From the NCBI GenBank assembly GCA_017450525.1, contig JAFSTJ010000623.1, positions 1 through 37,474 on the forward strand: a DNA stretch of 37,474 nt, given 5' to 3'. The notes under the pieces are model-generated. The model was not told where the DNA came from. It did not search any database and saw only the letters and a program-made list of their open reading frames with translations. Origin of the DNA: Victivallales bacterium (GTDB taxonomy: Bacteria; Verrucomicrobiota; Lentisphaeria; Oligosphaerales; Oligosphaeraceae). The translations under genes were made by a program, and so were the position numbers. How positions within the stretch are numbered: the stretch's first letter is position 1; each line of letters begins with the position of its first letter. Below, piece after piece: positions 1,105-35,864 of the stretch.

Positions 1105-1380
1105 ATGGCCTATATATCGTACAAGAAATTATGGCATCAGCTTATAGATAGGGATATCTCTAAAACAGAGTTAAGAAACGCCACGGGTATCAGTTCATCT
1201 ACGTTAGCTAACATGGTGAATGGTCATAATGTCAGTTTAGAGGTGCTTATGAAAATCTGTGTGTTTCTTCAATGCGATTTGTCTGATGTTGTTACAATTA
1301 TGTACGGTACCTCGGATTCAAAAGACAAGTCGTACTCTGAAAACTTCTTAAGAGATGAACAATCTTGTACAACAAAATAG
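1105..1380 (+). CDS. XRE/Cro-type HTH regulator of the RM locus
   Basis: A 91-residue protein. Residues about 6-70 form a Cro/CI-type helix-turn-helix: KTELRNATGISSSTLANMV is the HTH, followed by LEVLMKICVFLQCDLSDV. It is preceded by TGGAGAA and ATG 1105. The gene sits directly upstream of the methyltransferase, with a 19-nt gap to its ATG, so it is probably the controller (C-protein-like) or autorepressor of the locus. A GATATC site, the predicted RM target, lies inside the gene at 1153-1158. The C-terminal tail (70-91) is polar and probably disordered. Confidence 0.8.
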   Translation: MAYISYKKLWHQLIDRDISKTELRNATGISSSTLANMVNGHNVSLEVLMKICVFLQCDLSDVVTIMYGTSDSKDKSYSENFLRDEQSCTTK

Positions 1381-1399
1381 TTTTTTGGGGGGACAAATA

Positions 1400-2329
1400 A
1401 TGAAAAGCAAAAATAAGCAATTATCATCAATGCAGTTGGAACTTTTCTCAAAAGAGGAAATAGATTATGTCGAAAGTGATGATATTGATAGCATACAGTA
1501 TTCTGTTATAGTGCCTCCAATCAAGTGTCAAGGTATCAAGACAAAATTAGTCCCATTTATTAAGAAAACTGTTGGACGTCATGAAGAAGGAGTTTGGATA
1601 GAACCTTTTGTAGGAACAGGTGTGGTTGCTTTTAACATGGCTCCCCAAAAGGCAATTTTAGCAGATAAGAACCAATATATAATCTCTTTTTATCAGAAAA
1701 TACAGAGTGGAATTATAACACCATCTGTTGTTAGACAATTCTTAGAACACCATGGAAATTTACTTGAACAATACGGGAAAAAGTATTATTTGGAAATGCG
1801 TGATAATTTCAATCAAAATGGCGATCCTTTATATTTTCTCTTTTTAAATCGATCTGATTTTAATGGTATGATTCGTTTTAATCGTCATGGAGAATTTAAT
1901 GTTCCTTTTTGTCAGAAAGCAGACCGGTTCTCTAAAGCATATATCACTAAAATATGCAATCAGGTGGCCAATATAGCTTCTATTATGAGTGGAAAAGAAT
2001 GGGTTTTTATTTGTAGTAATTGGCAAGATATTTTCTCTTATGCCACAGAAAATGATTATATTTATATTGATCCACCGTACATTGGTCGTGACACTTCATA
2101 TGTTGGAGAATGGCCAGAAGAAGAGGCAATACAATTATCTAAATTTGCCCATGAAACTCCAGCAAATGTTTGTTTGTCTATGTGGAAAGAAAATGAATTT
2201 CGCAAAAATGAACATTTGTATAAATATTGGAGTGATTTTAAATGGTTTGAACAAGAACATTTCTATCACATTGGGGCCAAAGAAGTCAATCGCCATCCAA
2301 TGATTGAATTATTGGCAATAAAACGCTAA
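1400..2329 (+). CDS. Adenine-N6 DNA methyltransferase, M.EcoRV type (predicted GATATC)
   Basis: A 309-residue D12-class methyltransferase that transfers a methyl group from SAM to adenine N6, protecting host DNA from the nuclease at 2356. Motif I EPFVGTG is at 68-74 and catalytic motif IV DPPY at 224-227. Stretches such as VPPIKCQGIKTKLVP, FLFLNRSDFNGMIRFN and EHFYHIGA match what I remember of M.EcoRV closely, so the same target is likely. ATG 1400 has a GGGGGGA site upstream; in-frame ATG 1355 would overlap the regulator gene. The N-terminal 35 residues precede the recognisable EcoRV-like start. Codon use is AT-rich like the rest of the island. Confidence 0.93.
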   Translation: MKSKNKQLSSMQLELFSKEEIDYVESDDIDSIQYSVIVPPIKCQGIKTKLVPFIKKTVGRHEEGVWIEPFVGTGVVAFNMAPQKAILADKNQYIISFYQKIQSGIITPSVVRQFLEHHGNLLEQYGKKYYLEMRDNFNQNGDPLYFLFLNRSDFNGMIRFNRHGEFNVPFCQKADRFSKAYITKICNQVANIASIMSGKEWVFICSNWQDIFSYATENDYIYIDPPYIGRDTSYVGEWPEEEAIQLSKFAHETPANVCLSMWKENEFRKNEHLYKYWSDFKWFEQEHFYHIGAKEVNRHPMIELLAIKR

Positions 2330-2355
2330 CATCTAACTAGTAAAGGAGCAAAACA

Positions 2356-3255
2356 ATGAGTCTCTTCTTTTTCAATCAAGAGGACAAAACAGAAGACTTT
2401 TCCTTAATTGACGAGTTTTACTCATTGATGAATGATGTTGATTGTAATGCGTATGGGATAGTTGATACTCATAATCACATTCATACACTGGGAACTGATT
2501 CCAAAATTATAGGCCGAATCTTTGAAATGTTCGCACAACCTGTACTTGAACTAATTGCTCAAAAGCATGGTTTAATTCTTCGTACCCCTGAATCCCAAAC
2601 AGTATATCCTGATTTTATTATGATGAAAGATGAATCTTCAAAGGAAAAAATCGCAATTGATATAAAAACAACTTATATTGATAATGAAGATTCATCTATC
2701 AAGTTTACATTAGGTTCCTTCGCATCATATATGAGAAATAATATAAAGAATATCGAATATAAATATACAGATTATGTTAAGCATTATGTAATTGGCTTCA
2801 TTTATAAACGCAATGGAAATGCTCAAGAAAGCAAAGTTGTCGATTATGCGCTTCGTCATGAAATAGTTTTTCCATATAGAGATGTTAGATTTTTCATTCA
2901 AGAGAAGTTTAAAATTGCAGGTGACAAACCAGGTTCAGGCAATACCGAGAATATTGGTTCAATTTCTTCAAAGAATATTGATGATTTTAAATATGGACGA
3001 GGACCATTTAGTATTCTAGGTGCAGATATTTATGATTTGTATTGGAAGTATTACCCTAAATATAAGGAGACTATCAAAAATTATAAATCATTGAGTGAAT
3101 TTCTTACTTGGTGTCCCAAACATATAGATGAATTGGAACTGTTGCACCCGTTTAATCGCGATGTAGTTCTTGATTTGATTTCAGAATATATCAAAAATGA
3201 TAAATCTGACATTATATTTGATACGTCCGACGATGAATCAAAACAGGAAAACTAA
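2356..3255 (+). CDS. Type II restriction endonuclease, EcoRV family (predicted GATATC)
   Basis: A 299-residue PD-(D/E)XK endonuclease. It aligns without gaps to remembered EcoRV over the catalytic region with a constant +12 offset: E57 (EcoRV E45) in FEMFAQP, D86 (D74) in YPDF, and D102/K104 (D90/K92) in IAIDIKTTY. The DNA-recognition R-loop GSGNT and the flanking AGD...NIGSI are conserved. The C-terminus is about 50 residues longer than EcoRV and acidic at its end. It follows the methyltransferase by 26 nt with SD AAAGGAG, so expression order is regulator, methylase, nuclease. A GATATC-cleaving isoschizomer is the strong prediction; the cut position is unproven. Confidence 0.93.
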   Translation: MSLFFFNQEDKTEDFSLIDEFYSLMNDVDCNAYGIVDTHNHIHTLGTDSKIIGRIFEMFAQPVLELIAQKHGLILRTPESQTVYPDFIMMKDESSKEKIAIDIKTTYIDNEDSSIKFTLGSFASYMRNNIKNIEYKYTDYVKHYVIGFIYKRNGNAQESKVVDYALRHEIVFPYRDVRFFIQEKFKIAGDKPGSGNTENIGSISSKNIDDFKYGRGPFSILGADIYDLYWKYYPKYKETIKNYKSLSEFLTWCPKHIDELELLHPFNRDVVLDLISEYIKNDKSDIIFDTSDDESKQEN

Positions 3256-3327
3256 AACTCAAGCTATTGCTTAACACCCCTTCTCAAACCATACAAGACC
3301 TTGTGTAAATTTGGTTTTATTCAACTT

Positions 3328-4356
3328 ATGAAAGATGCACCCGACAATAGTGTTAAGCAAAGGAATGCTTCATCTGTTGCTTTTGGTTTTGATTTTCAAG
3401 TACATGCCGCAATGGTTCTAATGTTGGAGAATCTTCTTGAACTAAAAAACATACGTGTGGAAGGAAAAACAGAAGATATTGAAATTGAACTCAAAGACAA
3501 TAGCTATATCTTTGCACAAGCGAAATCCATCGTAAATAGCAGTTCGGATTTCCACAATGTACTAGCAAATCTTAAGAAAGCTTTAACTTCTCTTTCTGAA
3601 GCAGCAGCAACACGAACAATTAATAAACTGGTTTTCATTACTAATTCCCCAAATCCATTCAATACTCAAATAAACAATAGTATTTTTGTGGGGCATTCAC
3701 ATAGGGATTTTAAAACATTGCCAGAACAATATCAAAGGAGAATTACAGAATATTTGAAGGATATTAATACTCCTTTGGACACCAATAATCTGATGATTCA
3801 TATACTTCCATTTGAAACAGATAATAACCTGGAAAAATATAAGGTTGTCATAAGTGTAATCAATGAGTTTATTTCAAATTTGGAATTAAATGGTTTAATT
3901 TCAGCAGAAAGGATACGGAACATCTGGTTTTCAGAACTTTTTGCAAATAGTTCAAAAAAAGACACTCAAATTGTTTTATCTAAAAATGACTTAATCTGGC
4001 CATTGATTGTCATTATTACAGATATATCATACACAAATTCATCATTGCGTGAAGAGTTTGATTCTGCTGAATTTGAAGAAATTAGCAGAAAATACAAATC
4101 TATTATCAATTATCATTGTGAAAAATATGAGTATTTTACTCGAATTTTGTATGATTATCAGAATTTTACTTCATCTAAAAAAGGCCAAGAAAAAATAAAA
4201 GACTTCATTGAACTGAAGTGGAAAGATTACAAAGAAGATTTTGCTGCGGACGGGATTCAAGAGAGTATCAAATCTTCATTAATTAAAATTATAATCCATA
4301 ACGTTCTTCAACAACGCTTTAAAATTGATAAAATCAAAGAACAAACGGGTCTATGA
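3328..4356 (+). CDS. Cap4/DUF4297-like dsDNA nuclease, component of a Lamassu/ABC-3C-like pair
   Basis: A 342-residue protein. Residues 18-100 look like the PD-(D/E)XK nuclease head of Cap4/DUF4297 effectors: GFDFQ (20-24), TEDIEIE (48-54) and the QAK signature (64-66). The C-terminal half (about 160-342) is helical and charged and may replace the separate middle component of Lamassu/ABC-3C loci. Its stop overlaps the ATPase start by 4 nt (ATGA), so the two are translationally coupled. The start is uncertain: ATG 3328 and in-frame TTG 3301 both lack a clear SD. The likely role is the toxic nuclease of an anti-phage system, released by the ATPase; that is inference from family and neighbour. 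Confidence 0.75.
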   Translation: MKDAPDNSVKQRNASSVAFGFDFQVHAAMVLMLENLLELKNIRVEGKTEDIEIELKDNSYIFAQAKSIVNSSSDFHNVLANLKKALTSLSEAAATRTINKLVFITNSPNPFNTQINNSIFVGHSHRDFKTLPEQYQRRITEYLKDINTPLDTNNLMIHILPFETDNNLEKYKVVISVINEFISNLELNGLISAERIRNIWFSELFANSSKKDTQIVLSKNDLIWPLIVIITDISYTNSSLREEFDSAEFEEISRKYKSIINYHCEKYEYFTRILYDYQNFTSSKKGQEKIKDFIELKWKDYKEDFAADGIQESIKSSLIKIIIHNVLQQRFKIDKIKEQTGL

Positions 4357-5825
4357 TTATCCATTCAATTGACATAACAGAAGGCAATTATCATCGTCAT
4401 ATTGACTTTGATGATAAGATTAATCTTGTGCATAGTACTTATAATACACAGGGTAAAACAACATTATTGAGATTATTATTATATTCACTTGGATATAACA
4501 TTCCTGGAACAAGAAGATTTAATATTTCAAAATGTGATGTCTATACAGAACTTTCATGTGAGAAGCTTGGAAGGTTTAAATTGAAAAGAGATTCTAATTC
4601 GTGTACAATTATAACCATTATTAATGATAAAGAAACGACATACGTTCTTCCAGGACAATTATCAGAACTCCATAAACTTATCTTTGGCACAGAGAATGAA
4701 AACTTGATTAACAATTTACTTGGAGCTTTTTACATAGATCAAGAAAAGGGATGGACACTACTCAATAGAGGAGTAGTTATTGGGAATATTCATTTTAATA
4801 TCGAAGAATTAATTCGTGGCTTGTCAGATCGTTCTTGTACAGAATTAATAGAACAAGAGATGAAGCTTTCTATTGAGTTAGGTAAATTTCTCCAAATGCG
4901 AAGTGTATCTAAATACCAGCAAACTATCGTTGAGAATGGAGGAACACTAGCCACCGATGGATATGATGAAAAAATAGATATTGAAATAGAGCAATTATCA
5001 ATTCGTCAAAATGAATTAAAAAAAGAACTGAGTAGAATTGATAAAACAATTAACGACAATAAGGCTGTAAAAAGATTTATTGCTGAAATGAAACTACTGA
5101 TTAGACTTCCAAATGGAGAGCAATTTGCTGTTACTGAAGACAGCATTGTAGGTTTGAATGATTCCATTAATTTCCTCATTGCCAAACGTAAAATGCTTTC
5201 TTTGGAACTTACAGATATTGGCAGAAAAATAAGCACCCTTATCACATCCAGAAAATATGAGGAAAAACAATTGGAATTTTGGAAAACAGAAAATATAACT
5301 CAACTCTTTGATAAACAAATATCTACCATGCCACTAAATCCCATAGCAATTGAGAATAATATAAAACAACTACAAACAAAATTATCAGAGATACGAAAAC
5401 AAATCTCTGATAAAACAAAGATTGGTAATCCAATTTCAAAAGAACTCTATGATAATGTTCTTAAGTATGCTAATGAATTAGGGCTTGGTGATTCATCTTC
5501 AATAGCGGAAACATATATTTTTACATCTAATCTCAAAGAATTGACAGGAGCTATTCTTCATAAGACAGTGTTTTCTTTTAGATTAGCATATATTCTTGCA
5601 ATACAGAAAGCTTTGAATATAAAACTACCTATAATTCTTGATTCACCAAGCGGGAAGGAGATAGATAAAAATAATATTCAGCTTATGATTAATATTCTTG
5701 AGCGTGATTTTGCAGATAACCAAATAATCATAGCATCTATTTTTAATTATCAATTCAAAAAAATCAGAATAATTGAAATTCAGGATAGATTGGTTAATCA
5801 GCAGAACTCCCCACTTTTGGAATAA
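4353..5825 (+). CDS. SMC/ABC-type ATPase, sensor of the Lamassu/ABC-3C-like pair
   Basis: A 490-residue ATPase. A Walker A-like STYNTQGKTT lies at 28-37, followed by LLRLLLYSLGY as in ABC-3C ATPases. The middle (about 200-370) is rich in Glu/Lys/Leu heptads, i.e. coiled coil. The C-terminal lobe has a signature-like stretch LTGAILHKTVFSFRLAYI and Walker B LPIILDSPSG. It is short for an SMC-like LmuB, with short arms and no obvious Cys-X2-Cys hook. It overlaps the nuclease gene by 4 nt and ends the island. Known Lamassu ATPases sense foreign DNA ends or structures and free the nuclease; that role is inferred here. Confidence 0.78.
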   Translation: MIIHSIDITEGNYHRHIDFDDKINLVHSTYNTQGKTTLLRLLLYSLGYNIPGTRRFNISKCDVYTELSCEKLGRFKLKRDSNSCTIITIINDKETTYVLPGQLSELHKLIFGTENENLINNLLGAFYIDQEKGWTLLNRGVVIGNIHFNIEELIRGLSDRSCTELIEQEMKLSIELGKFLQMRSVSKYQQTIVENGGTLATDGYDEKIDIEIEQLSIRQNELKKELSRIDKTINDNKAVKRFIAEMKLLIRLPNGEQFAVTEDSIVGLNDSINFLIAKRKMLSLELTDIGRKISTLITSRKYEEKQLEFWKTENITQLFDKQISTMPLNPIAIENNIKQLQTKLSEIRKQISDKTKIGNPISKELYDNVLKYANELGLGDSSSIAETYIFTSNLKELTGAILHKTVFSFRLAYILAIQKALNIKLPIILDSPSGKEIDKNNIQLMINILERDFADNQIIIASIFNYQFKKIRIIEIQDRLVNQQNSPLLE

Positions 5826-11254: not shown

Positions 11255-12976
11255 CTACTGCCAGTTTGCTATCGTTTGGGATAGCTCGATTTTATTTTGT
11301 CGTGCGGCCTCCATTGCGGATAATGCCCGTGAGTCCTGTATGATTTCTTGCGACAGGGCAATTGCCCTGTTGGTGGATAGTTCGCCGTTGGTGTCAACCT
11401 GGAGCCAGTATTGGTACCAGGGGAGACGGGCGGGCTCGACGGTGAGCGGCAATGCGTCGCAGATAGACAGGCGGTTTTGGAATGCATAGCGGAATGTCCA
11501 GAGGAGTTCCCGCAGTGCGCTCCCAACCATCGGCGGTAGCTCGATAGTAGGGATGGAGAAAAGCCAGTCGGGATTGCCAGCGGGTCCGACTTGAAGGATG
11601 ACGGCCACTAACAGACGCTCTGGCGGAAGGTCCAGGGAGATGAGCGGCTGTGCCTGGGGCTGCGGTTGCGTCTGTATCTGCGCGGGCAGCTGAATGGTTG
11701 CCGTTGGCGTTGTTGCCAGTGCGCTTTCGGGGATTCCAGACAGCTCGGAAAGCTCCCTTAGCTCGATGGTTCGGACCGCTGGCAGCGGGTGTTCCAGGAT
11801 TATGGGCACGATGTTCTTGGAGACAAGCGTTGCTTCTGCTGCTGTCTGGCAGCGGCCTTTAGATATTCCGCTGTAAAGGAATGTCATCAAGGACATTGCG
11901 TCTATCCTGATGGGCAGTCCTTTTGCCCATAAATCGTCGGGGTCCTTGGCAAGAGGGTCGTCGGTTCGGTCCAGCTCGCCGATTTCAACGGTGATTTCCG
12001 CCTTCCTCAATGTCCTGGCGGTGGAGACTGCTGCTGCGGTGCCAGCTTCATCGGGGTCTGGCACGATTACGGCCTTGTCGGTCAGGCGAGAGATTAGTGC
12101 GGCCTGCTGGTCGGTGAAGCCCGTGCCGCCTGCCGCGATGGTCGGATAGCCAGCCTCGCATAGGGCAATGGCCTTGAGCTGGCCTTCTATAAGGTAGATT
12201 TTCTTTTCTCCGAAGATGGAGCGCAACATCTTCTGCGCGGCGTACCAGCCGAAAAGCGTTCTCCCCTTCTTGAACACGGCGGTGTCGGCTGTGTTGAGAT
12301 ACTTCGGCCTGTTGTCGGAAGGTGTGAGCAGTCTCCCAGTGAAACCGACTGGGTGCTTGGCATTGTCGTATATTGGTATGGTGATTCTGCCTTCAAGCGG
12401 ATCATAACGGTTGCCCGTGTCGGAGACTTTCAGAACGCCAGCGGCTACAAGTGCCTCCTGGTCAATACCGATGGTCAGGACAGATGCGCCCATGGCGTAG
12501 CCAATGCGGTATTTTTTTAGCGTTTCTTCCTTGAAGCCTCGCTTCATTATATACTCCAATGCCCTTGCGTTCTGCGGCTTGCGAAGGTTCTCTTCGTAGT
12601 GGCTGCATACCTGGTCAAGGACCGACAGTATATCCTGCCTGGCTACCTGTTGCTTGGGTGCGCCTGGTGTATATGGCGCATGGTCATACTGGACGGTTAT
12701 TCTGGATTCCGAGGCGATTATCTCCAGTGCGGTGGGGTAGTCAACATGCTCGTAGTCCATTATGAACTTGACGGCATTCCCGCCGATCCTGCATCCCCAG
12801 CACCACCAGCTGTTCTTTTCTGGCGTGACGTGGAAGCTCTTGCCACTGGCCGAATTGTGGAACGGGCAGGAGCCCTCCAGGTGGTTGCCGTGGCGTGCTG
12901 GCTTCAGCGGGATTCTGCGGCCAATTATGTCGGCGATGTCCGCCGCACGTTTTATCTCTTCTGCGTTGATTATCAT
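11255..12976 (-). CDS. DnaG-type DNA primase
   Basis: 573 residues; makes RNA primers for element replication. The zinc-binding CHC2 domain is at 37-62 (C37, H40, C59, C62). The RNA polymerase core follows (LEGRITIPIYD at 194-204, PKYLNT, KKGRTLFG). The TOPRIM motifs are YLIEG (261-265) and VPDPDEAG (305-312). The C-terminal 180 residues hold a Gln/Pro-rich linker (PAQIQTQPQPQAQP) and a domain that probably contacts the helicase. Start 12976 overlaps the helicase stop by 4 nt (ATGA), so it is coupled. No strong SD is seen. Confidence 0.92.
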   Translation of the reverse strand: MIINAEEIKRAADIADIIGRRIPLKPARHGNHLEGSCPFHNSASGKSFHVTPEKNSWWCWGCRIGGNAVKFIMDYEHVDYPTALEIIASESRITVQYDHAPYTPGAPKQQVARQDILSVLDQVCSHYEENLRKPQNARALEYIMKRGFKEETLKKYRIGYAMGASVLTIGIDQEALVAAGVLKVSDTGNRYDPLEGRITIPIYDNAKHPVGFTGRLLTPSDNRPKYLNTADTAVFKKGRTLFGWYAAQKMLRSIFGEKKIYLIEGQLKAIALCEAGYPTIAAGGTGFTDQQAALISRLTDKAVIVPDPDEAGTAAAVSTARTLRKAEITVEIGELDRTDDPLAKDPDDLWAKGLPIRIDAMSLMTFLYSGISKGRCQTAAEATLVSKNIVPIILEHPLPAVRTIELRELSELSGIPESALATTPTATIQLPAQIQTQPQPQAQPLISLDLPPERLLVAVILQVGPAGNPDWLFSIPTIELPPMVGSALRELLWTFRYAFQNRLSICDALPLTVEPARLPWYQYWLQVDTNGELSTNRAIALSQEIIQDSRALSAMEAARQNKIELSQTIANWQ

Positions 12977-14409
12977 GGTGTTGCCTGTGGTTGTGCGTTG
13001 GTTATGATGTCGTAGAGCATCTTGTTGTACTCGGCCTTGCGGGCCTCGTCCTTGGACATGTGGTAGTCGCTTGGGGACCATGGACGATACCTCATGCAGT
13101 AGCCGTCCCAATACAATTCCTGCTCAGTAAGGTCGGAGTTGCGGCTTTTGGCCACGGACAGCACGGCCCAGTTGTAGCCAGACTTTGACCTGTTTGTCGG
13201 ATCAGGAATGCTGTTGTCATTCTGCTTGCGGTCCTTCGATGGCCGCCAGAGCAGCATGACAACGTTTGCATCCTGCTCCAGTGCGCCTGATTCGCGGAGT
13301 TGCGACATGATGGGTTGGCTTCCGTCTGCCTGGCGGTTGAGCTGAGCAAGCGCCAGGACGGCGGCCCCCGTGGATTTTGCCGTCTCAATCCATGTCGCGG
13401 AAATGTCGGCCAGTTCTTCCGCTTTGTTCTGGCGCAGGTTCTTGGTGTGCTCCAACTGGATGTAATCGACGATGATGAGCGGGGGAGTTTTGCTTCGTGT
13501 CTTGTTTATAAGGTACAAAGTCGCGTTTCGGCAATCTTGCGGCGTTGGCCCTCCGCTATCGATTATAAAAAGGTTTGACTTTTGCAGAAAGTCGCAGGAC
13601 TTGGACAGTTTTTCTTCGCCTTCCCGTGACAGCCTGCCTGCGCGTAGGTGTATAAAGGAAAGCCCCGCGTGTTGGCAGGCCATTCGCTGTAGGATGTCGT
13701 TAGCTTTCATTTCATGCGAGAAGAATATCACGGGGTGGCTAGCCTTGAGCGCAGTCAAGGCGATGCATGAGGCTATGGCGGTTTTCCCCTGTGAGGGGCG
13801 TGCGCCCAAAATGGTCATGGCGGCAACGGGAAGGCCGCCGATTGTTCGGTCGATCATGGGGTAGCCAGTGGGAATCCCTAGGGCTTGGCCTCTTCCCGCT
13901 TTGCGGTCGCCGTATTCTTGTAGGAGTGTCTTTGTTGCGTCGGGTGCGGCAACAATGTTGAGCTGGCTCCCAGGTGCCGAAGCAACCATCCGCTGCACCT
14001 CTGCTATCTGCTCGGCTGGCTCGCCTGTCGCCGTGAGGTATTCAAGCCCCTGGTGCAGGGTGTCGATGAGGTTGTCGCGGCGTATGAGCTGGGAGAGGTC
14101 CCTGGCCAGTCGGTCCAGTGTGCTTTCGGATTCTGGGGGATAGGTGGACAGCAGCCACTGGATTGCCTCGTCGGCAACCTGGGCTGCAACGCCAGAGGCG
14201 CGGCGGATGTTGACTGGCGTGGTGTCATGCCCGTATGTCCAGCATCCCCAGGCCGCCTGTGCGATGATTTTCAGGCGGTTCTCCTGGAACGCGCGGGCGC
14301 TGTTCCACAGCTCGGCGGCGATGTGGTGTGCCGCCGTCGCCATTAGCTGCGGGCGGTGTATGATGGCCGCCAGCAGCTTGGCTTCCAGTTCTGTGCGGTT
14401 GTAGTCCAT
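12973..14409 (-). CDS. DnaB-type replicative helicase
   Basis: 478 residues, a RecA-fold hexameric helicase that unwinds DNA at the element's fork. The N-terminal helical domain is 1-150. The linker and ATPase follow: Walker A GARPSQGKT (202-210), FFSHEM (229-234), Walker B LIIVDYIQL (311-319), then ALAQLNRQ and the arginine-finger region QLRESGALEQDANVV. Length fits DnaB (about 450-480). Its ATG overlaps the upstream stop (TAATG), and its end overlaps the primase start. With the primase it forms an autonomous replication module. Confidence 0.93.
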   Translation of the reverse strand: MDYNRTELEAKLLAAIIHRPQLMATAAHHIAAELWNSARAFQENRLKIIAQAAWGCWTYGHDTTPVNIRRASGVAAQVADEAIQWLLSTYPPESESTLDRLARDLSQLIRRDNLIDTLHQGLEYLTATGEPAEQIAEVQRMVASAPGSQLNIVAAPDATKTLLQEYGDRKAGRGQALGIPTGYPMIDRTIGGLPVAAMTILGARPSQGKTAIASCIALTALKASHPVIFFSHEMKANDILQRMACQHAGLSFIHLRAGRLSREGEEKLSKSCDFLQKSNLFIIDSGGPTPQDCRNATLYLINKTRSKTPPLIIVDYIQLEHTKNLRQNKAEELADISATWIETAKSTGAAVLALAQLNRQADGSQPIMSQLRESGALEQDANVVMLLWRPSKDRKQNDNSIPDPTNRSKSGYNWAVLSVAKSRNSDLTEQELYWDGYCMRYRPWSPSDYHMSKDEARKAEYNKMLYDIITNAQPQATP

Positions 14410-14735
14410 TATAGCCAGTGTACGCAGGGTTTGCAGTATTCAATGGGATGCGCGATGTTGGTAATGCTGTCATTTGGCGGGTACTTGGAGACAAGCACTG
14501 CCGTTCCGTAGAAGGTTCTGGGCGGGATTGGCGGGTCGGTGAAGAGCCTGAATGGCTGTGCGCCAGCCTGGATGTTTGCCGCATACAGAATCCAGCCGTC
14601 TCTAATGTGCGGGACCTCCGCCTGGGCAATCTGGCTGGTTCCCATGATACGTTGAAGCTCGTTCAGAGACCCGTTTATCTGGATGGGAGTGATTTCCTGT
14701 CTCGAAGGGTCGATTCTATATGCAGTGTATTCCAT
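14409..14735 (-). CDS. DUF3846-like phage protein
   Basis: 108 residues. The layout resembles DUF3846: ITPIQINGSLNELQRIMG (a beta-hairpin plus helix), then RDGWILYAANI and FYGTAVLVSK. Proteins of this type occur near phage replication genes; their function is unknown. It is coupled to the helicase by a TAATG overlap. GGAGAA precedes ATG 14735. Confidence 0.65.
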   Translation of the reverse strand: MEYTAYRIDPSRQEITPIQINGSLNELQRIMGTSQIAQAEVPHIRDGWILYAANIQAGAQPFRLFTDPPIPPRTFYGTAVLVSKYPPNDSITNIAHPIEYCKPCVHWL

Positions 14736-14737
14736 TT

Positions 14738-15079
14738 TTATGCTTCTCCCCGTGCCTTGCGAAGCAGCCTGTCAATCTCGTGCTCCGTCTCCGCGTCGAT
14801 GGAGTTCTCTAGCTTGCAGAACTCCAGCCGCCCCTTGATGCGGTCAAGAAGCTCGTACATCTCTGGCGCGGCGGCTATCAGGGCCGCGTTTGCGGATAAC
14901 TGCTGCCAATTAGCTTTTTCTTTTGTTGCGTCTTCCAGTATGCGTTGCATGTCTGGCTGCATGATTTTCGCAATCACAAATGGAGACTTATCGCTTGTCA
15001 CTGACAAAAACCTAAAAATGCATATCTTGTCTCTAACACTCCACGGCCCCGGGGTGAATTTCTCTTTTCGTTCGCTCAT
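14738..15079 (-). CDS. Phage 'TPGPW...NAALIAAAPEMYE' protein
   Basis: 113 residues. FTPGPWSVRD at the start and SANAALIAAAPEMYELLDRI in the middle are the hallmarks of a small phage protein family found in many temperate phages; its function is unknown. The next gene upstream, 15076-15426, encodes a diverged relative, so this is a tandem duplication. ATG 15079 overlaps that gene's TGA by 4 nt, and GGGGGAGG is the SD. Confidence 0.75.
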   Translation of the reverse strand: MSERKEKFTPGPWSVRDKICIFRFLSVTSDKSPFVIAKIMQPDMQRILEDATKEKANWQQLSANAALIAAAPEMYELLDRIKGRLEFCKLENSIDAETEHEIDRLLRKARGEA

Positions 15080-15426
15080 TCTTGCACCTCCCCCCTGGCC
15101 TTCGCCAGCATGCGCAAGGCTTCATCATATATTTTCAGGCCGTCTTCGCCAAGTGTCGCAAGCAGCACTTGACCCCCAAAGGAGGTCAAAGACTTGATGA
15201 AATCAAACATTTCTGGTGCTGCGGAAATCAGAGCAGCGTTAGCGTTGATGACTTCGGATTCCGCGCAGTCTTTTGGATTGCAATATGTCGGGTCTGGCAT
15301 TTCAGCGATGAGACTTTGCGGCGGTGGTTCGTTTGACTGAATGCTGATCCTCATCCATGTCTTTTGCTTGTCCATAAACCTTTTGTTGGTGTGCCAGGGA
15401 CCTCTTGTGAAATTTGATTCGCTCAT
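15076..15426 (-). CDS. Second 'GPW...NAALISAAPEM' phage protein
   Basis: 116 residues. It shares FTRGPW at the start, INANAALISAAPEMFDFI in the middle and a closing LAKARGE with the next gene (KARGEA), which marks the two as paralogues. Start 15426 is set by the ATGA overlap with the upstream gene; an upstream in-frame ATG lies inside that gene. Function unknown. Confidence 0.72.
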   Translation of the reverse strand: MSESNFTRGPWHTNKRFMDKQKTWMRISIQSNEPPPQSLIAEMPDPTYCNPKDCAESEVINANAALISAAPEMFDFIKSLTSFGGQVLLATLGEDGLKIYDEALRMLAKARGEVQE

Positions 15427-15752
15427 TTGTCGCTGTCCTCCGTGTCTCTCCATTGCAATTCTCGCAGCAAGCCAAGTATCTTGACATAGAGTGCTGGGCG
15501 GTCTTTTATTGGCAAATCATCCAGGTTTATCTGGTTGAATACCTCGCATATAATCTCAAGCATTTTGGGTGCCTTTGAACAAAGCACGGCATTGTTGTAG
15601 TTGTCATCATTGCCTGTATGTGTTGGGAAGGTGGCAATCAGGTTGCCGCGTCCGTCAACTAGCTTGTCTGGCTTCTTGCCTTCACGATCTCCCATGGCAG
15701 GGCGTATTACTCTCCACGGTGTCAGGGCAAATCTTAATTTTGTATTACTCAT
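15423..15752 (-). CDS. Third, diverged member of the same small phage family
   Basis: 109 residues. It has TPWRVIRP near the start and NDDNYNNAVLCSKAPKMLEII in two overlapping segments, a degenerate version of the NAALI.AAPEM motif of its two neighbours, so a three-gene tandem array is likely. Its ATG lies inside the upstream gene's last codons (8-nt overlap). Function unknown. Confidence 0.65.
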   Translation of the reverse strand: MSNTKLRFALTPWRVIRPAMGDREGKKPDKLVDGRGNLIATFPTHTGNDDNYNNAVLCSKAPKMLEIICEVFNQINLDDLPIKDRPALYVKILGLLRELQWRDTEDSDK

Positions 15753-16215
15753 CTTCAACCTCAATATCTCCATTAATGACTGTCTCAAAGTAGCCATCAT
15801 ACCAAAGAAGTTTAAAGAAATGGTTTAGGTTATAATAAGTTCGTCTCCCGATTCTTTGGCGATAAACATTCTGTCTTCTACAGAAACCACCTATGGCTTG
15901 GCAGGATTTTATCGGCATTTTGTGTGAAAATTGGATTTTCTGTATATATTTCAAAATGACTTTTGGGAGAACCATTGGATCTTCTGCATTGTATCTGTCT
16001 ATGAACATAATGCTTTTCCCTATCTCCTGCCAAAAACCAAACTTGCCTTCTCCGCAGTCACAACAAGAATTTGAGGCGTAACCCTCCCCTTTGCATAACC
16101 CGCTATCGTTCCCATAAAAGGCGCAGTCGCCACATCCCAGGTCACAATAACTGTCACGCGGAACGGCGACCAGTTTGTACCACTTTCCATCCTGGTAATG
16201 CATGTAGTGTTTCAT
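15745..16215 (-). CDS. Cys-rich hypothetical protein
   Basis: 156 residues. The first third is Cys-rich (CDLGCGDCAFYG, LCKGEG, SCCDCGEG), suggesting a zinc or other metal site. The remainder is basic and aromatic (RQRIGRRTYYNLNHFFKLLW). SD GAGGAG precedes ATG 16215. It is more AT-rich than its neighbours. No family is recognised; a nucleic-acid-binding early protein is possible. Confidence 0.6.
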   Translation of the reverse strand: MKHYMHYQDGKWYKLVAVPRDSYCDLGCGDCAFYGNDSGLCKGEGYASNSCCDCGEGKFGFWQEIGKSIMFIDRYNAEDPMVLPKVILKYIQKIQFSHKMPIKSCQAIGGFCRRQNVYRQRIGRRTYYNLNHFFKLLWYDGYFETVINGDIEVEDE

Positions 16216-16574
16216 GGTTGTTTCTCCTCATTGTCTTTCAGGAACGTGAATCTATCCAGCATTTTTCTGCATACGGCAATGTCCGTGAATTTGGAGTTGC
16301 CATTTATATCTCTGAATTCCATTCTTCCAGTTTCAGTGTACCCCATGAACTGAAACTCGAAACCATTGCACTTGACTTTTGCGCCAGGAATGAATCCGAA
16401 GGTTATCAGTTCATTAAGGTCTTCTGCTGGAAGTTGGTCAAGTGCGCCCCTGGCTTCTTCCAGGCGTTCTCTGAAGTTATCCAGCGCGTCTTGGATTCGC
16501 CATGTTCTCGATTCCATGTCGTCAATGGCTTCGGCAAGCGTTTCTTTGAGATTGTCGAACTCTTCTTTTGTCAT
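16212..16574 (-). CDS. Hypothetical protein with N-terminal coiled coil
   Basis: 120 residues. Residues 1-55 form a charged coiled coil (EEFDNLKETLAEAIDDM, FRERLEEARGALDQL). The C-terminal part is a small beta domain (GAKVKCNGFEFQFMGYT, then GRMEFRDI). ACAGGAGG precedes ATG 16574, and its stop overlaps the next gene (ATGA). It lies just left of the structured region 16575-16832. Function unknown. Confidence 0.62.
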   Translation of the reverse strand: MTKEEFDNLKETLAEAIDDMESRTWRIQDALDNFRERLEEARGALDQLPAEDLNELITFGFIPGAKVKCNGFEFQFMGYTETGRMEFRDINGNSKFTDIAVCRKMLDRFTFLKDNEEKQP

Positions 16575-16832
16575 GTTTACCTCCTGTTGTGGCGGAAGAA
16601 AAGCGTGGGAAGCGGTGCCGCCTTTTTACCGCTTGTCGCCGAAAAAGCAGAGAAATGGCTATCCCACGCAAGAGAGGCCGTCGCAGGAGCGTTTTCGCGT
16701 TTATGTCTTTAATCCGCGATGTGTTTTTGGAACAGGGGTTTTGCCCTGCGACGGCCAAAGGTGGCGATGGTTGCAGCACGGTAGAAAGAGTTTTGAAGGA
16801 ATGTGAGGATTGGGCTGCAACCGTCGCCAAAG
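16575..16832. other. Structured intergenic region with three inverted repeats (candidate origin or RNA)
   Basis: The only long gene-free stretch of the early operon. Inverted repeats: GCGTGGGA/TCCCACGC (16603-16610/16662-16669) enclosing AAGCGGT/ACCGCTT (16610-16616/16628-16634); GGCCGTCGCAGG/CCTGCGACGGCC (16676-16687/16745-16756); and a 16-bp pair with one mismatch (16762-16777/16814-16829). It may be the replication origin or a structured transcript. An alternative is a + strand ORF of 61 codons at 16655-16840 (starting MAIPRKRGRR), which lacks a good SD. Confidence 0.45.
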
Positions 16833-16961
16833 CTATTTGAAGTATCGCTTTATTTCCTCCTTGATGCCGCCTCCTATGAGGTAGGCGGCAATAATGAGCG
16901 TCGGTATGGCAAGGATGGTCTCGATAATCATCTCAAGTGTGTCTGGCGTGTGGTCGGTCAT
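16833..16961 (-). CDS. 42-residue single-pass membrane protein
   Basis: Begins MTDHTPDTLEMIIETILAIP, continues through a hydrophobic helix (TLIIAAYLIGGG) and ends in a basic tail, KEEIKRYFK. One transmembrane segment (about 11-33) is predicted. AAGGAG lies seven bases before ATG 16961. It is 24 nt downstream of the RHH-regulator gene in the same direction. It may be a small membrane regulator or exclusion peptide; the function is not known. Confidence 0.68.
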   Translation of the reverse strand: MTDHTPDTLEMIIETILAIPTLIIAAYLIGGGIKEEIKRYFK

Positions 16962-16985: not shown

Positions 16986-17471
16986 CTAGTATGGTGCAAA
17001 TGCGTCTTCGGGGATGGAGGTATCGACTATAGGCTGCGCCTGGGGGTGTTCCTGGGGAGTGGTGGCTGTGCGGGGCTGGCCGTTTTGGATTCTTTTGCAG
17101 AGGCCGTAGGCGGCGGCTTCGGGGTTCTTCAGACCCTCTTCGGAGTTCTGGCGGGCCCGCAGTTCCTCGATGATGCCCTTGTAGGCTTCGGGGGTGACTT
17201 TCGGAAACCTCACCAGGTGGCTCTGGATGACTTCGGGTGTCATGCCTGGTAGGTCGGAGGCCTGCTCCTGCAATTCACTTGAAATTATCGTTGAACAAAA
17301 CTGTCGAGAGATAGAATTATCTGTATAAAGATAATTTTTGCCAAATAAAAAAGCATTGAAGAATCGTATGGCTTCTCTCAAGACTTGTGCTGCACTTTTA
17401 TTGCCTCTCTGTTGCTTAATCTGTTCAAGATAATTACTATCCTGTTCATCTAGAACTACATTAACTATCAT
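16986..17471 (-). CDS. Ribbon-helix-helix-like regulator at the head of the early operon
   Basis: 161 residues. The N-terminus IVNVVLDEQDSNYLEQIK with SAAQVLREAIRFF reads as a ribbon-helix-helix DNA-binding domain. The rest is a charged, Gln/Pro-rich tail (GLCKRIQNG, TTPQEHPQAQP). ACAAGGAGG precedes ATG 17471. It is the first gene of the leftward operon and diverges from the HTH repressor, so it may act as the Cro-like or early activator. The first ~200 nt are AT-rich and the remainder GC-rich, a mosaic junction near 17275. Confidence 0.65.
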   Translation of the reverse strand: MIVNVVLDEQDSNYLEQIKQQRGNKSAAQVLREAIRFFNAFLFGKNYLYTDNSISRQFCSTIISSELQEQASDLPGMTPEVIQSHLVRFPKVTPEAYKGIIEELRARQNSEEGLKNPEAAAYGLCKRIQNGQPRTATTPQEHPQAQPIVDTSIPEDAFAPY

Positions 17472-20256: not shown

Positions 20257-21201
20257 TCATTGTTTGATTGGCGGGTCTGGCTTGAAGGTTTCCCTGGCAA
20301 TCTCGATGGCGTTCTGGAGCTGTTCCCGTGTCGGCCTAGTGCTGCTGATAAGAGCCAGGAGTTCTCCGATGTTGGTTCCAAGTTCTGAAAGGATGGCTGG
20401 CATGGCCGTTGCGAAGCACGATGAATAGTAAATGGCTTTTTGAATGTTATCCCGATAGCACTTGTCAAAGACATTCTTGCCGATTCTTTTTGAATGATGG
20501 GCCATTCTGTTAATCAGGTTGCTCATGTAAGTATGTTTATCGGAGACCTTTGCATTGTCCAGCATCATTTGCTTTTCTTCTTCGGAGAGCGGTGAGCCGT
20601 TCCATAGATGCAGGAAAAGCCAGAATTCAAAGCATGGATTTGCGATGTAGAATCCGAAGCCCTGTTCCCTGCATCTGGTCCAGACGAGTTCCAGTTCGCT
20701 TCTATCGTGCGATTGCCTGTCCCTGTCCAGCACGACGGCAAACAAGTCGGAATGCTCGTCGCGATTCTTGAGAAAGAACCGATAGTCATAGTCGATGCCA
20801 AGTTTTAGCAGCATGGTCTTGAAGAGCTTGAGCCTTTCCTTCGGAATGGATGAGGGATTCTTGAGTATCCTGTCAATCTCCTCGTCATCAAACTGCTGCC
20901 TGATTTCATCCATTGCGTCAAACGGCAGGATTCCCTTCTTCTGTACATCCTTGCACTCATTAAGCAGATCCAGCACGTATCGTGGTGAGCTCATGCCGTC
21001 GTTTCGGTGGCGGAGGACGTGGATCTGGAACTGCGACTTGTTGTCCCTTAGCCAGGCGTTGAGATTATTGAAGTAGCATCGCTCTGTCAGGAAGCCTTCC
21101 GTTGACAGGAACACCAGGCGTTTAGGCTCCATGGTATTCTCGCCCTTCGGACGCTCGAACATGTCCCTGGCGGCGGAAAGCCTGTATTTATTCGTCACCA
21201 T
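20257..21201 (-). CDS. rloB: RloB-family TOPRIM-like nuclease (AbiLii-like)
   Basis: 314 residues. The RloB pattern is present: VFLSTEGFLTERCYFNNL with E35, VVLDRDR with D159/D161 (TOPRIM-like acidic pair), and IANPCFEFWLFLH (187-198), the most conserved block of the family. It is the likely nuclease effector, acting with the RloA ATPase in abortive infection as in lactococcal AbiL. Start 21201 is set by GGGGAGG and overlaps the RloA gene by 14 nt, so translation is coupled. Recognition as RloB is confident; the activity is known only from family analogy. Confidence 0.85.
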   Translation of the reverse strand: MVTNKYRLSAARDMFERPKGENTMEPKRLVFLSTEGFLTERCYFNNLNAWLRDNKSQFQIHVLRHRNDGMSSPRYVLDLLNECKDVQKKGILPFDAMDEIRQQFDDEEIDRILKNPSSIPKERLKLFKTMLLKLGIDYDYRFFLKNRDEHSDLFAVVLDRDRQSHDRSELELVWTRCREQGFGFYIANPCFEFWLFLHLWNGSPLSEEEKQMMLDNAKVSDKHTYMSNLINRMAHHSKRIGKNVFDKCYRDNIQKAIYYSSCFATAMPAILSELGTNIGELLALISSTRPTREQLQNAIEIARETFKPDPPIKQ

Positions 21202-22564
21202 GGCCGTCCTCCCCTGTTTCCTGGATTTCCCCGAAAATAGGCAGCGCGCCATATCGGCCAAGAAGATAGTCTTTCTTTATGTCCTTGTCAAATCGTGTCT
21301 TGAACTTCGACAGGGAATAGAGGGAAGAGCTTTTTTCCTCGTTTCTCTCGACAAACCAGATTTCATCCTGCCTAACCTGGTCGAGGTCGAGCAGTTCGCC
21401 ATCGTGAGTCGTTGCTATCAGCTGAGAATTGGCGTTAGCATCGTCGCCGTAGAAAAGGCGGATGAACTCCAGCGTTGCCTTGGTGTGGAGGCTACGGTCG
21501 AGTTCATCGATGACGGCGACGCCGTTCTGTCTTAGCAGTGGAATTAATGGCAGCAGGTCAAACAGCCTCTGGGTCCCCTCCGATTCATCCTCGCGTTCAA
21601 AGGGGATGTCGGGCCTTCCATGGACGGCCACGATCTTCTTGACCTTAATGCCATCTCCGTTGGAGTAGAAGCAATAGTATGAACCTCTGCAATTCAGCGC
21701 GATCGCCGAGGGCTTCTGGTCTGAGGAGAGCAGTCGGAACACATCGGCCTTGACATTCTCCCTTATGTCGGACGGGATGTATTCCCAGCATTTGTCGATG
21801 CTTACATCCTTGGCAAGCAGTGATTCGATGCCTGTGTCGAAGTGCTTCAGCCATTCCGAATACTGCAACCTGCCGTTGTCGTCGTGGACAAACGACGGGA
21901 TGCCCGTGAAGCGGGTTTCAGGGAAGAGCACCAGAAGCCTCTGAAACCACGAGAAAACATCCTGGAACCTGCTTGAAAAGTCCTCGGTGTTGGAGCTGCG
22001 CTTGGCGACATCGGAGAGGAACAGCGTCCGTCTCATGCCGCTTTTTTTCATGTCCTCCTTATACACGTCAAACCTTTTCTTCTCATCGCCCTGGAAGTGG
22101 CAGTCGGATTCAATCGTTGTGTTGCCAGTTTCATCCTTGATCCTTGAGAACAGGCAGGTTTCGCCTGAAGGACCGTCTAAGGTGGAAAGCCATTCTCCGA
22201 CTATTTCAACAGAGAGATAGTCGATGGCAAAGCCGTATGAATAGAATCTGCCATTGGCGAAAACGTCAAACTGGAAGCGGCCGATTTTGTTTTCGCTTCC
22301 AGAAGGAGACAGAAGGAAGTTCATGCGGTCGCAGTTTGTTCTTTCCAAGCCGTCTATGACTACGCGCCTGGCAAAGTCAATGGCTTTTACAAAGTTTGAC
22401 TTCCCTCCTGCGTTTGCACCGAACATGAATGCTCCGCGCAAAACCCGCTTGCCGTTGCACTGCGAAACATGCCCTGGATGGCGCGTTATTTTGCTCGCAA
22501 CCATGCTAAACTCTGTTTCGTCCCTGAATGACTTGAAGTTTTCACATATAAACCGTAAAAGCAT
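21188..22564 (-). CDS. rloA: RloA-family AAA/ABC ATPase (AbiLi-like)
   Basis: 458 residues, of the OLD/AAA_15-type ATPase group. It begins LLRFICENFKSFRDETEFSM. Walker A is FGANAGGKSN (48-57), the signature-like stretch ESEGTQRLFDLLP lies at 327-339, Walker B VAVIDELDRSLH at 349-360, and the switch TTHDGELLD at 385-393. It presumably senses infection and controls the RloB nuclease. AGGAGG precedes ATG 22564, and a 17-bp dyad (22594-22610) lies upstream. The pair is transcribed against both flanking element modules, typical of cargo. Confidence 0.85.
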   Translation of the reverse strand: MLLRFICENFKSFRDETEFSMVASKITRHPGHVSQCNGKRVLRGAFMFGANAGGKSNFVKAIDFARRVVIDGLERTNCDRMNFLLSPSGSENKIGRFQFDVFANGRFYSYGFAIDYLSVEIVGEWLSTLDGPSGETCLFSRIKDETGNTTIESDCHFQGDEKKRFDVYKEDMKKSGMRRTLFLSDVAKRSSNTEDFSSRFQDVFSWFQRLLVLFPETRFTGIPSFVHDDNGRLQYSEWLKHFDTGIESLLAKDVSIDKCWEYIPSDIRENVKADVFRLLSSDQKPSAIALNCRGSYYCFYSNGDGIKVKKIVAVHGRPDIPFEREDESEGTQRLFDLLPLIPLLRQNGVAVIDELDRSLHTKATLEFIRLFYGDDANANSQLIATTHDGELLDLDQVRQDEIWFVERNEEKSSSLYSLSKFKTRFDKDIKKDYLLGRYGALPIFGEIQETGEDGHGDE

Positions 22565-22593
22565 AACAACCTCCTGTAGATAGAATGTAATAT

Positions 22594-22610
22594 ATGTGAT
22601 AATTTCACAT
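22594..22610. promoter_or_regulatory. Dyad operator upstream of rloA
   Basis: ATGTGA-TAATT-TCACAT is a perfect 6+6 dyad 30 nt upstream of the rloA start. The arms TGTGA/TCACA resemble a CRP-type half-site but with 5 bp between instead of 6. It may bind a repressor that keeps the abortive system low. Confidence 0.5.
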
Positions 22611-22767
22611 TTTCCAGTTTTGCGCCTCATTTTATCGTGGCAACAATAGCTTTTGGCATGTTTTGTCTGGATTGGTGGATGCAATGCGGGTGCGCTTTTT
22701 TTGAGCGTTTTCAAAAACACTTGCCTTTGCAATCACAAACAGCAATCACAAAAGGCGGCTGTTTTGG

Positions 22768-22966: not shown

Positions 22967-23689
22967 ATGACAGCAAAGCCCGTACAACTTCGGCTCTTCC
23001 CAGATTCGGAGGATGCCATTCTCTACTCCAGGTCGGCGGCCTATACTGGGCTGGACGACACTGGGCAGAGAGTTGTTCGTGCCTACATCATGGCGTTGTC
23101 TGACAGCGGGGTTTTCCCGACGCAGAGCAAGGTGGCTTCGCTGGCTGGTCTCTCCCGTCATGCCGTGGCCAATGCCCTTGGTGACCGTGCCAGCGAGGCA
23201 TGGCAGGCGATTACGGAGATATTGGCGAGCTGCCGAGAGGACCTTGCGGTTCGCGGATCCATCGCCATTCCGCAGATTGCGTGGCTCATCCTCTCGCAGT
23301 TCGTGCCAGGGGAAGGCAAGCTGACGCGGGCAACCTCCACCCTCACCAAGGTGGAGCTGGAGGTTCTCAAGGCTGCTGCCGCGATGGGCGGCGTGGCCTG
23401 CCTCGATGGCGGGCCGACAGTCACCGTGGCGGCGGCTGCTTCCGATGGCAAGGCTGGGGTCTCCGTCCAGGTGTCGGCACCAACGGACGCTTCTGGGCTT
23501 GCCGAGCTGGTAGGTAAGCTGCGCCAGTCTCAGCTGGGGCAGGGTTTCACGGCTTCGCCGCAGGATACGGGACATTCTGCGGCGAAGGTGGTTAGCGCAG
23601 ATTCGGCGCAGGTGGTTAGCGCAGATGACGCATTGACTGCCCGACAGGATGCCGATGGTTCCGAGGCGGCTGGCGGTGGCGGGCGGTGA
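22967..23689 (+). CDS. Probable terminase small subunit
   Basis: 240 residues. LRLFPDSEDAILYSRSAAYTG is followed by a helix-turn-helix-like stretch (PTQSKVASLAGLSRHAVANA) that could bind the packaging site. The C-terminal third is low-complexity Ala/Gly/Ser with a tandem KVVSADSAQVVSADDA repeat, likely disordered. ATG 22967 has no strong SD; the operon context sets the call. It is separated from the large subunit by a 442-nt GC-rich gap. An alternative is a late transcription regulator. Confidence 0.55.
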   Translation: MTAKPVQLRLFPDSEDAILYSRSAAYTGLDDTGQRVVRAYIMALSDSGVFPTQSKVASLAGLSRHAVANALGDRASEAWQAITEILASCREDLAVRGSIAIPQIAWLILSQFVPGEGKLTRATSTLTKVELEVLKAAAAMGGVACLDGGPTVTVAAAASDGKAGVSVQVSAPTDASGLAELVGKLRQSQLGQGFTASPQDTGHSAAKVVSADSAQVVSADDALTARQDADGSEAAGGGGR

Positions 23690-24131
23690 GGCTTCTTCCC
23701 CTCTCTACCTCCTGGCCTCGCGGCTGGCTGGCGCCAGTCGCTTCGGGACCATCGGCCTTGGCAGGCGGTTACCCTAACCGCAGACCGCCGATTTTGACGG
23801 CTGGTTTCGCCTTGGGGCGAGGCCAGCCGACAGGGCTGGCGGTTTGGTTTGGGCTAGTTTTGGGCTAGTTGACGGCTTTGCCGCGTGGTGGCGGCATGAT
23901 GTCATGGTGTTCCGTCGGCTGGCTCACCCTCTTCCCCCTTCCTCCCCTCTGCCGTTTCCTCTCTTGGGCAGGGGGGGAGGGGGGAGGACCGAAGGGGGGG
24001 CCGCGGGGGCCGCGCGATTTTTGCGCGGGGGTATATATATCAAGCGGGGGGTGTCTTCCAGATGCACTTCTGGGAGATTTGCAGGGGACGGTTTTTTTCT
24101 GGAAAAATATTTAGAGATTTCTGGGCAGAAA
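23690..24131. other. G-rich noncoding gap, candidate packaging (pac/cos) site
   Basis: No convincing gene here. Contents: hairpin GCCAGCC/GGCTGGC (23822-23828/23834-23840); the tandem GGGCTAG block (23848-23870); G-runs at 23967-23969, 23972-23978, 23980-23985, 23995-24000 and 24005-24009, able to form a G-quadruplex; and a CCGCGC/GCGCGG stem (24010-24028). Lying between the terminase genes, it is a natural place for a packaging signal. Confidence 0.45.
23848..23870 (+). repeat. Tandem TTTGGGCTAGT pair, inverted copy of 7787-7809
   Basis: Two tandem TTTGGGCTAGT units form a 23-nt block whose exact reverse complement lies at 7787-7809 next to the integrase. Two exact copies 16 kb apart at non-homologous loci suggest a shared binding site or a trace of recombination. 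Confidence 0.6.
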
Positions 24132-35394: not shown

Positions 35395-35802
35395 TCAGCG
35401 GCGGATTGTTCCGATGCTGATGATGGGGATGTCCGCATCTTCCTTATCAGGCTTTACCCAGTCCAGCACAGTGCCTCCAGCCTCGGCGTAGTACGGCGTA
35501 ACCAGAAAGTTTCCGTCACCTTCTCTGGTCACGATATAGTCTCTTACCTTGAAGGTCTTGCTTGTGTGGAGGTCCAGCAGCATGGTGTCCAGTGACGGCA
35601 CTTCCGTAAACGGATACAGTGCATCCAGCACCTTCTGCCTGTCCTCATTGGGGATGATATATTTTTCGACCTCACAACCATTGGCCATTTCCAGAGGTTC
35701 AGTGGGGTAGTCAAGCCTCTCCTGCGCCCCCGTTATCATCATCAGCATCTCGCGCTCTGCTGCCCCAAGACTATTTGCCTTGTTGTAATCGTTGCCTTCC
35801 AT
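35395..35802 (-). CDS. Unknown protein, paralogue of the 487-924 gene
   Basis: 135 residues with AAAAGGAG before ATG 35802 (an upstream in-frame ATG would run into the hairpin). It shares NSLGA, MANGCEVE, IVTREGDGNFLVTPYYAEAG and GTVLDWV with the protein at 487-924. Its own C-terminus differs (KPDKEDADIPIISIGTIRR). The pair is about 34 kb apart in opposite orientation, each behind a hydrophobic small-protein gene. Function unknown. Confidence 0.8.
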   Translation of the reverse strand: MEGNDYNKANSLGAAEREMLMMITGAQERLDYPTEPLEMANGCEVEKYIIPNEDRQKVLDALYPFTEVPSLDTMLLDLHTSKTFKVRDYIVTREGDGNFLVTPYYAEAGGTVLDWVKPDKEDADIPIISIGTIRR

Positions 35803-35833
35803 TTGTTCAATTCTCCTTTTGTTTGTGAGTGAA

Positions 35834-35864
35834 AGCCCAGGGGGGCATGACACACCCCTGGGCT
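35834..35864 (-). terminator. Perfect 10-bp hairpin upstream of the paralogue gene
   Basis: AGCCCAGGGG (35834-35843) pairs with CCCCTGGGCT (35855-35864), 11-nt loop, between the small membrane-protein gene and the paralogue. It has no T-tract and matches the style of 93-121. Confidence 0.55.

Follow-up and report, generated by a model that had tools for sequence, protein, structure and literature searches.

The sole large space in the densely packed minus-strand early operon of a Victivallales prophage, a 258-nt gap at positions 16575-16832, is a real and strongly structured non-coding segment. The window analyzed here, a stretch of 37,474 nt from a gut Victivallales bacterium, carries this prophage, as judged from an integrase-like gene, a terminase large subunit, DnaB, DnaG, and further phage-like genes. 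The gap is most likely a cis-acting RNA of no known family. Our preferred model, to which we give a probability of roughly 0.45, is a cis-acting structured intercistronic RNA that would set the expression of the accessory genes downstream of it.

Architecture of the Early Operon

The gap lies near the start of the operon, within a block of small genes that precedes dnaB and dnaG:

16986-17471, minus strand: gene for a 161-amino acid (aa) protein, the first of the operon, orthologous to a 154-aa protein (32% identical) of the related phage L054
16833-16961, minus strand: 42-aa open reading frame (ORF), MTDHTPDTLEMIIETILAIPTLIIAAYLIGGGIKEEIKRYFK, with the ribosome site AAGGAGA upstream and a codon score of 0.37
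16212-16574, minus strand: gene for a 120-aa protein of unknown function, the first gene 3′ of the gap
14409-16961, minus strand: accessory block, comprising the 42-aa ORF, the gap, and the genes for proteins of 120, 156, 125, 125, 113, and 108 aa
12973-14409, minus strand: DnaB-type replicative helicase (DnaB_C, E = 2.6e-54)
11255-13111, minus strand: DnaG-type primase

The upstream border of the gap is the stop codon of the 42-aa ORF (16961-16833) and the downstream border is the ATG of the 120-aa gene (16574), ahead of which lies the ribosome site AGGAGG. The other intergenic spaces from dnaG (11255) to the 161-aa gene measure -139 to +24 nt, which bears out the initial annotation in its remark that the surrounding genes overlap or nearly touch.

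The first protein of the operon appears by eye to be ribbon-helix-helix-like. The codon score of the 42-aa ORF is coding-like, at about the 90th percentile of real genes, and its peptide has, by eye, a single membrane helix and a basic C terminus. The accessory block spans 2.55-2.58 kb between the 161-aa gene and dnaB and contains six small phage genes, two of which belong to PHROG 1273 (function unknown). The 120-aa protein has no convincing relatives in 388 genomes of the phylum, the best matches (E = 0.002) being parts of much longer frames, and a search of IMG/VR with the neighboring 120-, 161-, and 156-aa proteins returned no relatives. The window contains no tRNA.

The prophage also encodes an AbiL-like defense pair at 20257-22732, consisting of an AAA ATPase (AbiLi, E = 6e-83) and an RloB-like protein (AbiLii, E = 2e-15). 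A defense island adjoins the prophage at 1355-5825, with a type II methyltransferase and restriction enzyme followed by a candidate PDC-M46A/B pair. Two clearly similar proteins of unknown function (∼145 and 152 aa) are encoded near opposite ends of the window, at 487-924 and 35395-35853, in opposite orientation.

Tandem Long-Loop Hairpins Fold Beyond Chance on the mRNA Strand

The structure of the gap is made up of four hairpins:

16762-16829, minus strand: hairpin A, with 16-nt arms (16762-16777/16814-16829), 15 positions paired, and a 36-nt loop
16676-16756, minus strand: hairpin B, with a perfect 12-bp stem (16676-16687/16745-16756) and a 57-nt loop
16603-16669, minus strand: hairpin C, with a perfect 8-bp stem (16603-16610/16662-16669) and a 51-nt loop
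16579-16597, minus strand: small hairpin CUUCC/GGAGG, which masks the AGGAGG ribosome site of the 120-aa gene

The three inverted-repeat sets of 8, 12, and 16 bp and the smaller hairpin described in the initial annotation are all present, with the qualification that the 16-nt set pairs at 15 positions. Hairpin A starts 3 nt after the stop codon of the 42-aa ORF. In a long minus-strand transcript, 14 of its pairs form with a probability of ∼1, and its loop is pyrimidine rich with little structure. The odd position of its stem reads C-A on the minus strand; on the plus strand it is U-G, and there all 16 of 16 positions pair, one of them as G-U, which is no more than a hint of a plus-strand RNA. 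The loop of hairpin B encloses two small helices, and hairpin C continues beyond its 8-bp stem with three extra pairs past a bulge and an inner helix. Stems A to C are almost wholly Watson-Crick, a trait shared by DNA palindromes. Immediately 3′ of hairpin C on the minus strand is the terminator-like stretch UUUUCUU; a terminator scan made no call at this hairpin, whose 51-nt loop contains the inner helix. The long transcript leaves the ribosome site of the 120-aa gene largely paired (unpaired probability 0.02-0.36).

This structure exceeds chance. Among 400 dinucleotide shuffles of the gap, a set of three or more non-overlapping stems, each 8 bp or longer and with loops of 20-70 nt, never arose, and neither did a 12-bp stem. 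The folding z score is about -6.5 on the minus (mRNA) strand, a stability reached by 0 of 200 shuffles, versus -2.9 on the plus strand. In a long minus-strand transcript, the pairing probability of the stems is near 1. Of 218 windows of 258 nt that were scanned, the gap is the most structured on the minus strand and takes sixth place on the plus strand; one other region, at ∼23.7 kb, has comparable structure. As would be expected of a cis-regulatory RNA in general, the mRNA strand of the gap folds more stably than its composition predicts, and the fold is placed before a ribosome site.

Further pairings and motifs were considered and rejected. A closing stem, GGAGGAAA/UUUCUUCC, which would enclose hairpins A to C and compete with masking of the ribosome site, is present in the fold of a trimmed transcript, but shuffled flanks close the domain with at least 8 pairs in 181 of 400 cases. 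By this count, pairing of the last codons of the 42-aa ORF with the anti-ribosome-site strand, as a translational switch, is no better than chance, and we do not claim a switch by peptide translation. The arm motif CCGTCGC, common to hairpins A and B, was rejected as an iteron, with similar octamers frequent across the window (59 with at most one mismatch, versus 24 expected).

Just ahead of the gap, an extra hairpin with GCCGCC/GGCGGC arms lies inside the 42-aa ORF at 16857-16898. The structured region at ∼23.7 kb (23550-24000) is situated between the end of a small terminase-like gene (23689) and the terminase large subunit (∼24120). Its z scores are about -8 on the plus strand and about -7 on the minus strand, and it contains long imperfect inverted repeats with arms of 42 nt (23651-23692/23715-23756) and 31 nt (23781-23811/23816-23846). 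It is possibly a packaging site or a repeat element.

The Accessory Block Is Absent from Related Phages

Relatives of the prophage were traced through DnaB and terminase, and include L054 from IMG/VR and L047 and L048 from Lentisphaerae genomes, among others. The nearest is L054, with a terminase 67%, a DnaB 45%, and a 161-aa protein ortholog 32% identical; the terminases of L047 and L048 are 43-45% identical in the alignment. The block is absent from L054, where ∼20 nt separate the end of the 161-aa gene ortholog from dnaB. It is also absent from L047 and L048, in which a small gene abuts dnaB at a distance of 11 and 25 nt, respectively; the L048 gene shows no detectable relationship to the 161-aa protein. 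All three relatives keep the dnaB/dnaG module and have no gap at that place. Since the gene before dnaB abuts dnaB in each of them, the gap and the block are dispensable to this type of phage. By sequence comparison, the accessory block is optional, either gained in the phage of the window or lost in its relatives.

No comparable non-coding element emerged when the early regions of L047, L048, L054, and L057 were scanned for folds. Two candidate counterparts were rejected. In L048, a 12-bp inverted repeat found at the corresponding position (11556-11647) lies inside a 51-aa coding ORF and its fold is unremarkable (z = -1.1), and a gap in L047 (8890-9133) folds no better than chance. Elsewhere in the related prophage L047, a strongly structured segment (13441-13680, z = -6.5 on the plus strand) lies directly before a small-terminase-like gene.

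A diversity-generating retroelement with a reverse transcriptase was seen only in the relative L055. Its 129-nt variable and template repeats (11367-11495 and 11588-11716) have 16 differences, every one at template adenines, and a reverse transcriptase ORF follows (11824-12840). No reverse-transcriptase-like ORF was noticed in the ORF lists of the window, part of which was searched against family libraries.

The Element Is Found in One Genome

No second copy of the element was detected in its own genome, in 29 genomes of the family, 198 of the class, and 388 of the phylum, in phage records, or in IMG/VR. A single-sequence covariance model (R1), run against the 198 class and 388 phylum genomes, recovered the element's own copy alone at a meaningful E value, the best of the others lying at 0.06-0.09, and a search of IMG/VR for the exact hairpin patterns found none. 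Both kinds of search detect only fairly close copies, and therefore distant relatives with changed stems may exist. Rfam gave no match at the gathering cut-off in the whole window, including the C4 antisense RNA, GOLLD, and ROOL families. At E values up to 10, the gap region gave only chance microRNA-type matches (E = 1.4-7) and Rothia-sucC (E = 1.9).

A Model for the Gap and Its Alternatives

In our preferred model, the gap would be transcribed as part of the minus-strand early mRNA, after the gene for the 42-aa membrane peptide, and the transcript would fold into tandem hairpins A, B, and C and the small hairpin that covers the ribosome site of the 120-aa gene. Some transcripts may end or be processed at hairpin C and UUUUCUU, by a putative attenuation, and the hairpins as a group may act through attenuation, processing, or stabilization. 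With its ribosome site masked, the 120-aa gene would be expressed at a low level until a ribosome, a protein, or an RNA opened the site. The position of the gap in the accessory block makes sense in these terms, as it suits local regulation of cargo and not a core role in replication. Against the model are the single copy, the Watson-Crick stems that resemble DNA palindromes, the odd pair of stem A that suits a plus-strand RNA, the terminator scan that passed over hairpin C, and the closing stem at chance level.

A local regulatory RNA structure is more likely than a phage replication origin, because the gap belongs to a dispensable accessory insert that related phages lack. The initial annotation had offered three roles for the gap. 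Of these, a structured regulatory RNA or leader is still the best reading, judged by anatomy and folding. An origin of the element is weakened by the three dnaB/dnaG relatives that have no gap and by the scans of the gap itself, which found no iterons or strong direct repeats and, in the GC-skew check that the annotation had proposed, no change of skew. The optional nature of the block argues against the gap as an origin of this phage type and equally against a leader dedicated to the replication genes, the third proposed role; the genes immediately downstream are accessory, with dnaB only 2.2 kb further on. The gap may nonetheless have a cryptic role, as an operon read in the way it appears would still place the block and dnaB on one transcript.

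Several other explanations bear on the same features. The terminator-like end at hairpin C, the open pyrimidine-rich loop of hairpin A, which could bind targets, and the place within an accessory block would all suit a free-standing small RNA of the prophage, acting in trans or against host defense or another phage. Such an RNA could be read from the minus strand and end at hairpin C and UUUUCUU, or from the plus strand, antisense to the operon, where alone stem A is fully paired. We consider it unlikely, however, as the scanned stretch has no consensus promoter directly upstream on either strand (Victivallales promoters may differ) and the element has neither an Rfam match nor relatives. The near-perfect palindromic stems, with no wobble pairs on the minus strand, and the DnaB and DnaG encoded in the same operon could instead indicate a site acting as extruded DNA hairpins, for single-strand initiation or for another step of replication or recombination. 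This is a rather unlikely explanation given the findings already set against an origin, namely that the relatives with the same module lack the gap and that repeats and a skew change are missing from it.

The 42-aa membrane peptide, a short hydrophobic product with a basic C terminus encoded directly ahead of the hairpins, might be a type I-like toxin, with the structured region as its 3′ untranslated region or as an overlapping antisense RNA. We regard this as improbable: the peptide matches no family and has no convincing relatives in the 198 class genomes, the promoter scan showed no antisense promoter, and small membrane peptides are common in phages. Slightly more doubtful still is a scar of an old recombination or insertion with no present function. 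It would account for a block that comes and goes and for an element found in this genome only, but the stems are intact, and the two ends of the gap coincide exactly with a small gene and a ribosome site. The palindromes could, finally, be incidental to a small plus-strand gene in the frame 16655-16840 (61 aa), which is open. Its codon score of -0.05 lies below the lower quartile of real genes (middle half 0.05-0.31) and at the upper end of antisense controls, its ribosome site is weak, it runs antisense to the operon, and it has no Pfam or tblastn match. Coding in this frame, which the initial annotation had named, if conserved, as evidence that would count against a structured element, is thus unsupported, and we consider such a gene highly improbable.

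Should the RNA prove functional, it would count as a regulatory element of an early operon in Lentisphaerota/Victivallales phages, on which a literature search found nothing directly relevant. It is an unlikely, more speculative prospect that the gap represents a new class of phage-encoded three-hairpin RNA in Victivallales phages, either a trans-acting cargo RNA or a ribosome-site switch coupled to the 42-aa leader. In practice, the gap should not be annotated as a phage origin, and its block should be treated as cargo.

Comparison with Known Systems

GOLLD and ROOL, the latter named after its rumen origin, are large, phage-linked structured RNAs that are widely conserved (PMC12286853). The gap resembles them as a structured sequence, predicted to be a non-coding RNA, that is tied to a mobile element. 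Both are far larger and occur widely, whereas the element described here is 258 nt long, is found in one genome, and matches no Rfam family.

The c4 RNA of P1 and P7 and the CI RNA of P4 (Rfam C4) are phage immunity RNAs. Like them, the gap could provide a small structured RNA within a phage operon, able to act on the surrounding transcript; in contrast to them, it lacks an Rfam match, both at the gathering score and with E values up to 10. The single-strand initiation (ssi) hairpins of the G4 type and of RSF1010 offer a parallel at the DNA level, with stem-loops close to primase and helicase genes, but the gap element is dispensable in the relatives.

The nutR/tR1 region of lambda, between cro and cII, and the put RNAs of HK022 are intercistronic hairpins and attenuators of phage early operons. 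The gap differs from them in its three stems with 36- to 57-nt loops and in its absence from the nearest relatives, and neither a boxA/boxB or put-like sequence nor a regulator was identified for it. Its likeness to these systems is one of arrangement: a putative structured RNA that follows the first genes of an early operon, precedes the replication genes, and has a terminator-like element near it.
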